Of a DNA stretch of 35,835 nt, positions 23,573-25,858 are shown piece after piece. The notes beneath the pieces are model-generated. The model ran no database searches. It saw only the letters and a list, made by a program, of their open reading frames with translations, and had not been told where the DNA came from. Source of the stretch: a bacterium (GTDB taxonomy: Bacteria; DRYD01); assembly GCA_030549815.1 (NCBI GenBank), contig JAUQQQ010000002.1, positions 47,530 to 83,364 on the forward strand. Direction: 5' to 3'. The stretch's first letter is position 1. Each line of letters starts with the position of its first letter. A program made the position numbers and the translations under genes.

Positions 23573-23784
23573 TAAATATAAACCTGTGTAAGTTGTAATT
23601 TAAAAAATAAATTAGTATTTTTAATAAGAGCAGGATTTTATTTATCCAATTTGTATATTAACGGGGGTATAGAGTAAATATTTATTAAGAATAATCAAAA
23701 TATCAAGCGGTTAAAATACAATGTTAGATTAATAGTAAAAAGATGCGGAAAATGAAGAAATTGCCAATAGGAATAAGTAGTTTT

Positions 23785-23808
23785 GTGGGGCAGGGGTCCC
23801 CTTTTGCA
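23785..23808 (+). repeat. GC-rich palindromic insert 1
   Basis: 24 bases (VGQGSPFA in frame) absent from the usual SSF-KIR context; core GGGGCAGGGGTCCCC. Its reverse complement (GGGGACCCCTGCCCCA) resembles insert 2 in the same gene, so the inserts occur in both orientations. Confidence 0.7.
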
Positions 23809-23841
23809 AAGATAAGGACAGGGGGATATTATTATGTAGAA

Positions 23842-23862
23842 AATTGTGGGACCCCTACCCCA
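23842..23862 (+). repeat. GC-rich palindromic insert 2
   Basis: 21 bases (codons for NCGTPTP) placed between YYYVE and KTYFVKK; core GGGACCCCTACCCCA. It keeps the reading frame. Confidence 0.7.
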
Positions 23863-23984
23863 AAGACATATTTTGTAAAAAAATTAGTAGAAGAAGAATA
23901 TTATTTTTTATCTCGTCCTCGACGTTTATTAGGCGTTCCGCAGGAAAAAGCTTGTTTGTTGATACATTGCGCTGTGCATTCGCG

Positions 23985-24005
23985 GGGTCAGGGGACCCCT
24001 CAACA
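23985..24005 (+). repeat. GC-rich palindromic insert 3
   Basis: 21 bases encoding GSGDPST between CAFA and GKKELFKG; core GGGGTCAGGGGACCCC. It keeps the reading frame. Confidence 0.7.
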
Positions 24006-24666
24006 GGAAAAAAAGAATTATTTAAAGGATTGTATTTAGAAAACAATTGGAATTGGGAGGAGAAGTATCCGGTAGTAAGAGTATCATTTGACACAACATT
24101 TTCAAAAAGAAAAGAATTAGAAGAATTTATTGTAGCAATTCAGGAAAAATACGCAAAGGAGTTCGAAGTAAAGTTAAATTCTAAGCATGTTGGCTTAAGG
24201 AACATTAATTTAATAGAAGGGATATACCAAAAAGTAGGGAGGAAAGTGGTATTATTAATAGACGAATATGATAAGCCAATATTGGATAATATAGAGAAGA
24301 GTGGAATTGGCTAATGAAATAAGAGAAGTATTGAAGGGTTTTTATCAAACAATAAAAGGAATGGATAAGTATTTACGTTTTGTATTTATAACAGGGATAA
24401 GTAAATTTGCAAAAGTGTCGTTGTTTTCAGGATTAAATCAGTTAAATGATATAAGTTTGAATAAGGAATACGGAGATATATGTGGATATACAGAGGAGGA
24501 ATTGTTGAAAGTATTTGGGGAGTTAATAAAGAGTGATAAGGAGTTAGAGGAGATAAGAGAGTGGTACAATGGATATTGGTGGTTGGGAAGTAAGATATAT
24601 AATCCGTTTGATGTTCTATTGTATTTACAAAACAGGGAAAGTGAAAGTTACTGGTTTGAAACAGGT

Positions 24667-24687
24667 AATCCAGGGGAGGGGGCCCCT
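24667..24687 (+). repeat. GC-rich palindromic insert 4
   Basis: 21 bases encoding NPGEGAP between YWFETG and TPEFLVKL; GGGGGCCCCTACCCC continues into native codons. It keeps the reading frame. Confidence 0.7.
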
Positions 24688-25519
24688 ACCCCAGAGTTTT
24701 TAGTAAAGCTAATAAGGGAGAATAATTACTATATACCATCGGTGGAGGAGATTGTGTTAAGAAGGGAAATGTTAGATTGGTTTGATGTGGAAGACATAAT
24801 GATAGAGGTTTTGATGTATCAGACAGGATATTTGACAATAAAAAAGGTAGAGCAAAAAGGAGATATAAAAGAGGTAATGTTAAGTTATCCAAATAAAGAG
24901 GTAAGAACAGCATTAAATTTATATATAAGTAGAAAAATAGAAAAGGGGTCATATAGGTGGATAAAAGAAATAAGAGAAGTATTTGAAAGAGGAGAAATAG
25001 AGAAAATAGAGGAATTGATAAACAAAGTGCTGTTGTCTATACCATATGTATGGTACAAGGATACAAGTAGATATGAGAGTTTTTATTGTGCATTGTTTTA
25101 TGTGTTGTTAGTATCAAGTGGGTTAGAGGTAATAGCAGAAGATGTGACAAGTATAGGGAGAATAGATTTGACAGTGATAAGTAAAGGGAAGGTCTATATA
25201 ATAGAGTTAAAGGTAGATAAAGAAGGAGCAATAGAACAAATAAAAGAGAAAAGATATTATGAGAAGTATTTGGATAGAGAAGAGATATATTTAGTGGGTA
25301 TAGTAATAGATAGTAAAGAAAGGAAAGTGGAAAAGATGGACATTGAAAGATATAGATGATGTAGTAATTGTGGTGAGGGAAATAAAGAAAATGGTATAAG
25401 GTAGAGGTTTATGTATGTCTAATAGAATTTGAATCAGAAATTTTGAAAAATATGCAGGAAAAAATAAAAAAAAAGTAGAACATAAAAAAAGTTGTATAAA
25501 AAGATGGGAGGTGATAAAA

Positions 25520-25858
25520 ATGAAAAAAAATATATTGATTTTAGTATTAGTGATGATAGGAATAGTAGTTTTAATCATATCAGGTTGTAATAGTGGAGGT
25601 AGTGGTGGTGGAACTGTTAATGGTGGGAGTGGTGGTGGAAGCGTTATAGGAAAAGTATCAAATACATTTGGAAATCCTTTAAGTAGAGATATAGATGGAG
25701 ATGGCGATAACTACACTGGTGTTATTCTAAACAACATTGCTGGTGGTGGGGATGATTCTGGTAGATCAATAGCGATAGATGGAAGTGGAAAAGTTTATGT
25801 TACGGGATATAGTTATAATGGTACTAATAATGATGCATATGTAATAAAAATAGAATAG
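25520..25858 (+). CDS. Short SBBP-repeat lipoprotein
   Basis: 112 aa. Start ATG 25520 has GGGAGGTGAT 5-7 bases upstream; the in-frame GTG at 25511 lies inside that site. A lipobox LIISGC (Cys23) is followed by a Gly/Ser linker, a DGDGDNYTG motif (calcium-loop-like), and one beta-propeller repeat: GRSIAIDGSGKVYVTGYSYN and DAYVIKIE. SBBP proteins normally carry many repeats; this one stops after one, so it is probably a truncated or minimal copy. An antisense pseudogene at 4040-4295 is a second, decayed copy. A strong terminator follows 28 bases later. Confidence 0.8.
   Translation: MKKNILILVLVMIGIVVLIISGCNSGGSGGGTVNGGSGGGSVIGKVSNTFGNPLSRDIDGDGDNYTGVILNNIAGGGDDSGRSIAIDGSGKVYVTGYSYNGTNNDAYVIKIE

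Follow-up and report, generated by a model that had tools for sequence, protein, structure and literature searches.

Palindromic inserts in a broken DUF1703 gene

The stretch of DNA analysed here (the window; 35,835 nucleotides) belongs to contig C5 of the draft genome G000 (1.59 Mb, 29.5% GC) and contains a broken gene whose three fragments match the Pfam domains AAA-ATPase_like (PF09820) and PDDEXK_9 (PF08011), that is, DUF1703. This agrees with the initial annotation, which had described a broken AAA-ATPase/PD-(D/E)XK gene. There are about 14 DUF1703 paralogs in G000, the window copy being L020, and five of them (L010, L011, L012, L014 and L015) are free of inserts. As listed in Table 1, alignment to insert-free paralogs recovers the four palindromic inserts already recognised in the window gene, at slightly shifted coordinates. 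Of the two lengths originally given, 21 nt stands, while the 24 nt assigned to the first insert does not, since S1 is 21 nt long; likewise, the tally of four is right for those inserts but overlooked a 14-nt insert of another class (S5) and one extra base near 24310. The S1 junction has a 5-nt direct repeat, TTTTG, because of which the insert can be slid to 23786-23806. S2 is oriented opposite to S1, and pairwise comparison finds the reported similarity of the first insert to the reverse complement of the second. The S5 sequence is present in four paralogs only, is absent elsewhere in the G000 genome, and shifts the reading frame of the window gene. The insert lengths (21, 21, 14, 21 and 21 nt) plus the one base give a total divisible by three; the gene is broken because the stretch from S5 to S6 is out of frame and runs into a stop.

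In the DNA alignment of the copies, every G000 insert has clean empty sites among the paralogs. Those in L010, L011, L012 and L014 bear out the expectation that relatives lack the inserts, and mean that close homologues do not carry the same codons at these positions. The palindromes are also ruled out as ordinary codons of the family by their absence from paralogs and from 80 foreign DUF1703 homologues (the best matches in other taxa), apart from the sister-genus MAG RSWP7. DUF1703 genes of both genera often adjoin a lipoprotein-like gene that contains SBBP beta-propeller repeats (PF06739), which suggests a recurring gene pair. Two intact DUF1703 proteins gave no match in PADLOC, and DUF1703 as a known defence family was dropped on that account.

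Table 1. Features of the window gene and related loci. Unprefixed positions are those of the window; a slash in a peptide marks the insertion point.
Feature	Location	Strand	Site, state or basis
Broken DUF1703 gene, insert host	23743..25359	+	Pfam matches on three fragments; alignment to intact paralogs
Insert S1, TTTTGTGGGGCAGGGGTCCCC, 21 nt	23781..23801	+	ISSF/xxIR; empty in L010-L014, filled in 6 aligned paralogs
Insert S2, AAATTGTGGGACCCCTACCCC, 21 nt	23841..23861	-	YYYVD/KT; empty in 7 aligned paralogs, filled in 4
Insert S5, ATTAGGCGTTCCGC, 14 nt, another class	23928..23941	+	Walker A motif (P-loop), RRF/GKS
Insert S3, CGGGGTCAGGGGACCCCTCAA, 21 nt	23983..24003	+	AFE/GKKE; filled in L018 and L020 only (alignment)
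One extra base, S6 site	24309..24310	+	Alignment; paralog L018 has a 21-nt palindrome (S6) there
Insert S4, GGGGAGGGGGCCCCTACCCCA, 21 nt, near-perfect palindrome	24673..24693	-	ETGNP/EFL; empty in 7 aligned paralogs, filled in 4
Lipoprotein-like SBBP neighbour of DUF1703	25511-25858; L018:3172-3648; L226		
Double hairpin, 30 nt, GAATGACGAAGTCATTC TCTCGTAAGAGA A	G000:C5, about 1760-1790 (L021)		One insertion, in a DUF1703 copy
Probable degenerate hairpin copy in a broken HD-domain gene	G005:C100:10976-11011 (L456)		Covariance model, weak match, E 0.06

Distribution of the palindromes in G000

The motif GGGGNCCCC (at most one mismatch) occurs eight times in the window versus 0.88 expected, a number reached by 0 of 100 shuffles, and AGGGGNCCCCT is found at nine places in G000 versus none for the reversed control. 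A regex for G-run/G-run/C-run palindromes returned 25 in the assembled contigs; 23 are in DUF1703 genes or relics, and the remaining two resemble a tRNA and a chance match. Shuffles, reversed control and this gene-family bias together rule out a chance motif. All exact GGGGNCCCC matches in G000 are also within DUF1703, the genome regex found no palindromes of the G-run/C-run type in intergenic DNA, and GC-rich 18-mers elsewhere, labelled by reading alone, resemble rRNA, tRNA or isolated cases. The initial annotation had envisaged spread into genes in general, which does not hold: within G000 the elements are confined to DUF1703 paralogs, where the palindromes occupy eight sites in both orientations. 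The family makes up ~1.4% of the genome (estimated as ~14 copies x 1.55 kb), and uniform insertion would place eight independent sites all in DUF1703 with a probability of ~1e-15 by hand calculation.

The G000 sites are S0 (KKLP/IGIS), S1, S2, S5 (P-loop), S3, S6 (GIA/EEI), S7 (SLF/SGLN), S9 (YNPF/DVL) and S4. The elements are built of G and C runs arranged as perfect or three-quarter palindromes. Inserts are mostly 21 nt long, with lengths of 14, 19, 20, 22 and 30 nt also present; they are short, recurrent and mobile in some sense, as first proposed. Their target duplication is not constant (0-5 nt), and as single strands they fold no better than shuffles. The 30-nt double hairpin in L021 has no second copy in the G000 genome. 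A perfect hairpin, TATCCAACGAAGTTGGATA, is repeated at G000:C5:479, C14:4, 94 and 513, and C19:53713, all near contig ends. A known RNA family is ruled out, Rfam matching nothing except a nearby tRNA, and the full G000 palindrome had 0 matches in viral contigs.

An unrelated hairpin in the same gene family of a sister genus

Two genomes of a sister genus, G004 and G005 (drafts, 88% and 87% complete), were covered by pattern and covariance-model searches, the latter scoring 150 of the roughly 600-800 candidates in each genome. They carry a hairpin family that is unrelated to the G000 class and occupies the same gene family: CATATAAC-stem-ATAC-stem'-TCGTTATA, 21-36 nt, with ends TTTCATATAAC...GTTATA and a TA to TATA direct repeat at 8/8 junctions. 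Insert size over both genera is therefore 14 to 36 nt. The hairpin lies at several positions of the DUF1703 gene in G004, and in two DUF1703 copies, in frame, in G005. Exact pattern matches number 37 (35 in G004, 2 in G005), with none in any other genome searched; those outside the aligned copies proved on reading to be DUF1703 too, so that the 37 are in DUF1703 wherever checked. The congeneric genomes G001 and G002 have decayed DUF1703 copies without hairpin inserts. Fragmented DUF1703 genes in G138, G205, G325 and G056 reflect mostly contig ends or deletions, and hairpin inserts were not recognised in them. A loose version of the pattern gave the inner stem in 0/80 among the viral-contig matches listed.

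A model from seven site variants has an outer stem TATAAC/GTTATA, an internal loop NTC/TC, an inner stem of 4-5 pairs and a loop around ATAC. In this element, the G000 class being too uniform in G and C for compensatory change to show, the hairpin is conserved by such change, as in mobile hairpins of the GC-cluster type: 73/73 cells are paired, 13 changes are double-sided, all variable pairs change on both sides, and 0/500 shuffles reach the score. Slid registers come nowhere near; the rows were N-padded by hand into register, which favours structure, yet complementarity is visible within each single element. The covariance model also picked up a copy in a broken HD-domain gene of G005, graded as probable only because its inner stem is degenerate. 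The G004 ortholog (L490) is uninterrupted, an empty site, and the pair suggests, on sequence comparison, that the element may have moved beyond DUF1703. Sites S2/a and S7/b of the two genera lie no more than about 5 nt apart; shared insertion sites are not significant, as ~0.4 such pairs are expected by chance (hand estimate).

Near-identical inserts in diverged paralogs

Paralogs with near-identical inserts at the same site differ by 15-40%; L020 and L021, for example, have S1 and S5 in common and are 64% identical overall. Between filled paralogs, same-site inserts are 0.981 (G004) and 0.942 (G000) identical, with flanks within 15 nt at 0.886 and 0.860, respectively. Insert divergence far below flank divergence disfavours inheritance from a filled ancestor, and the pattern fits short-tract gene conversion better than descent. 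Over flanks of 0-30 nt, filled pairs are slightly more similar than label shuffles (0.856 vs 0.820 and 0.847 vs 0.800; 0/1000 each), the effect being weaker at 30-150 nt (27/1000 and 7/1000); given copy relatedness and recombination, such shuffles are a rough guide only. In Cardinium, ready recombination among DUF1703 paralogs has been reported (PMC6387759). In L019 (G000:C5, about 108.8 kb), a deletion of several hundred bases has the palindromic inserts S6 and S4 as its ends, as if the two inserts had recombined.

State of the host genes

All six multi-insert copies in G000 have further frameshifts, stops or a deletion, the further lesion in the window copy being the extra base at the S6 site. 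No further lesions were found in L013, which has one in-frame insert, or in the insert-free G000 copies tested. In G004, another lesion is present in 4/8 filled copies versus none of the insert-free copies. Contrary to the initial annotation, the elements do not reliably keep frame: some have a net length of 14, 19, 20 or 22 nt, several introduce a TAG in frame, and the copies with more than one insert are pseudogenes. Broken frames and added lesions likewise rule out selection for frame in most copies. Two filled G004 copies, L167 and L169, are free of other lesions across some 500 codons, although insert a ends their reading frame near residue 45. In G004, dN/dS is the same in copies with and without inserts (0.336 vs 0.320). 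For L018 and L020, which have five inserts in common, dN/dS is 0.08, so that loss of function looks recent; judging from these ratios together with the lesions, host copies probably experienced long purifying selection followed by recent inactivation.

Interpretation of the inserts

We consider it likely (probability roughly 0.6) that the inserts are minimal non-autonomous palindromic mobile elements, almost confined to DUF1703, which combine rare insertion, copying between paralogs and accumulation in dying copies. A rare transposition-like event would put an element at a new site, and short-tract gene conversion would copy it, as an unpaired loop, into the corresponding site of further DUF1703 paralogs. 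Insertions that break a copy would be tolerated because the family is redundant; broken copies would gather more elements plus ordinary lesions, and elements would recombine with each other, deleting the DNA between them. The same process, with an unrelated hairpin family and TA/TATA sites, would also operate in the sister genus. We infer gene conversion as the copying step, recent inactivation of the hosts and an enzyme for new insertions; no mobilising enzyme, transposase or other, was identified for either element class. Several observations sit uneasily with this model. Flank co-conversion is weak for pure gene conversion, and the G000 class combines inconsistent target duplication with single-strand folding at shuffle level. 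Redundancy accounts for tolerance, not for absence from intergenic DNA, and rare insertion with paralog copying leaves the near-restriction of new sites to DUF1703 unexplained.

Alternatively, ordinary MITE-like elements could insert widely and be purged except from redundant, dying DUF1703 copies, in keeping with the direct repeats at all sister-genus junctions, the inverted termini, both orientations and the one probable copy beyond DUF1703. Tolerant intergenic DNA should then harbour copies, and the G000 regex and exact-pattern searches found none there; with the variable target duplication of the G000 class, this makes such a purge unlikely. Similarly improbable is a homing-like system in which hairpins of 21-36 nt would be copied site-specifically between DUF1703 paralogs with almost no flanking DNA, possibly by the family's own nuclease, different lineages having unrelated hairpins. 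Doubtful, too, is the proposal that a dedicated enzyme, possibly the DUF1703 nuclease itself, targets the elements to DUF1703, each acting as a homing element whose insertion destroys the site that the enzyme cleaves. The extreme DUF1703 bias in both genera, the occurrence of unrelated element classes, one per genus, in a single gene family, and near-identical variants per site across diverged paralogs with little flank carried over all speak for targeting. Against it are the probable HD-domain copy, the insert-free best homologues of other taxa, and the lack of any motif common to sites beyond TA in one genus. The DUF1703 nuclease may play a part. Equally doubtful is that inserts are removed or skipped in expression, by translational bypassing or RNA-level excision, leaving host genes functional: the otherwise lesion-free L167 and L169, the dN/dS values and the conserved sister-genus hairpin are compatible with this, but stops or frameshifts outside the inserts affect all multi-insert G000 and half of the filled G004 copies, and near-identical inserts in diverged copies imply recent arrival, which alone accounts for the intact rest of the host copies.

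Comparison with known elements

REPs are extragenic palindromes of 20-40 nt. The inserts resemble them in palindrome size and in the GTAG within many G000 copies, but all insert copies examined are intragenic. REP elements have RAYT transposases (PMC3733652). Searches for a Y1 transposase gave zero matches in G001, G002, G004 and G005 and only partial matches in G000, and a RAYT/REP system is ruled out by the sister genus lacking one. A fragment of a Y1 (IS200/IS605-type) transposase lies at G000:C3:73787-74011.

The initial annotation had likened the inserts, as much shorter elements, to Rickettsia palindromic elements, which are about 100-150 bp, occur across unrelated genes and often keep the frame so that a peptide is translated from them (PMC10969869). 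Both are palindromic inserts within bacterial coding genes; however, the kinship does not hold, as size, genomic spread and in-frame translation all differ, the present inserts being 14-36 nt, in one gene family and often frame-breaking. The inserts resemble the mobile hairpin clusters of yeast mitochondria more closely than any bacterial element found. Yeast GC clusters (the GC42 class is 42 nt with an AG target site) are likewise short mobile palindromes, rich in GC against an AT-rich genome; they leave footprints like those of co-conversion, and their stems are constrained (PMC4478555). Unlike them, the inserts here are about 21 nt, bacterial, and inside coding sequence of one gene family. 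Repetitive hairpin-forming elements of sponge mitochondria share small hairpins and repeated invasion but are organellar and intergenic rather than within bacterial coding sequence (PMC2800124).

In the open-access literature, most subscription journals being outside this scope, we found no report of such inserts in DUF1703 genes. Among published cases, the GC clusters and hairpin elements of mitochondria come nearest, as do, in bacteria, the Rickettsia elements; mobile hairpins this small are documented in organelles, and we found none reported inside bacterial coding genes. Restriction to one recombining family provides a natural system for tracing, at each individual site, insertion, copying between paralogs and deletion between elements, and raises the testable question of what DUF1703 nucleases do to DNA. 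If the homing-like reading were true, hairpins of 21-36 nt would be among the smallest mobile DNAs.
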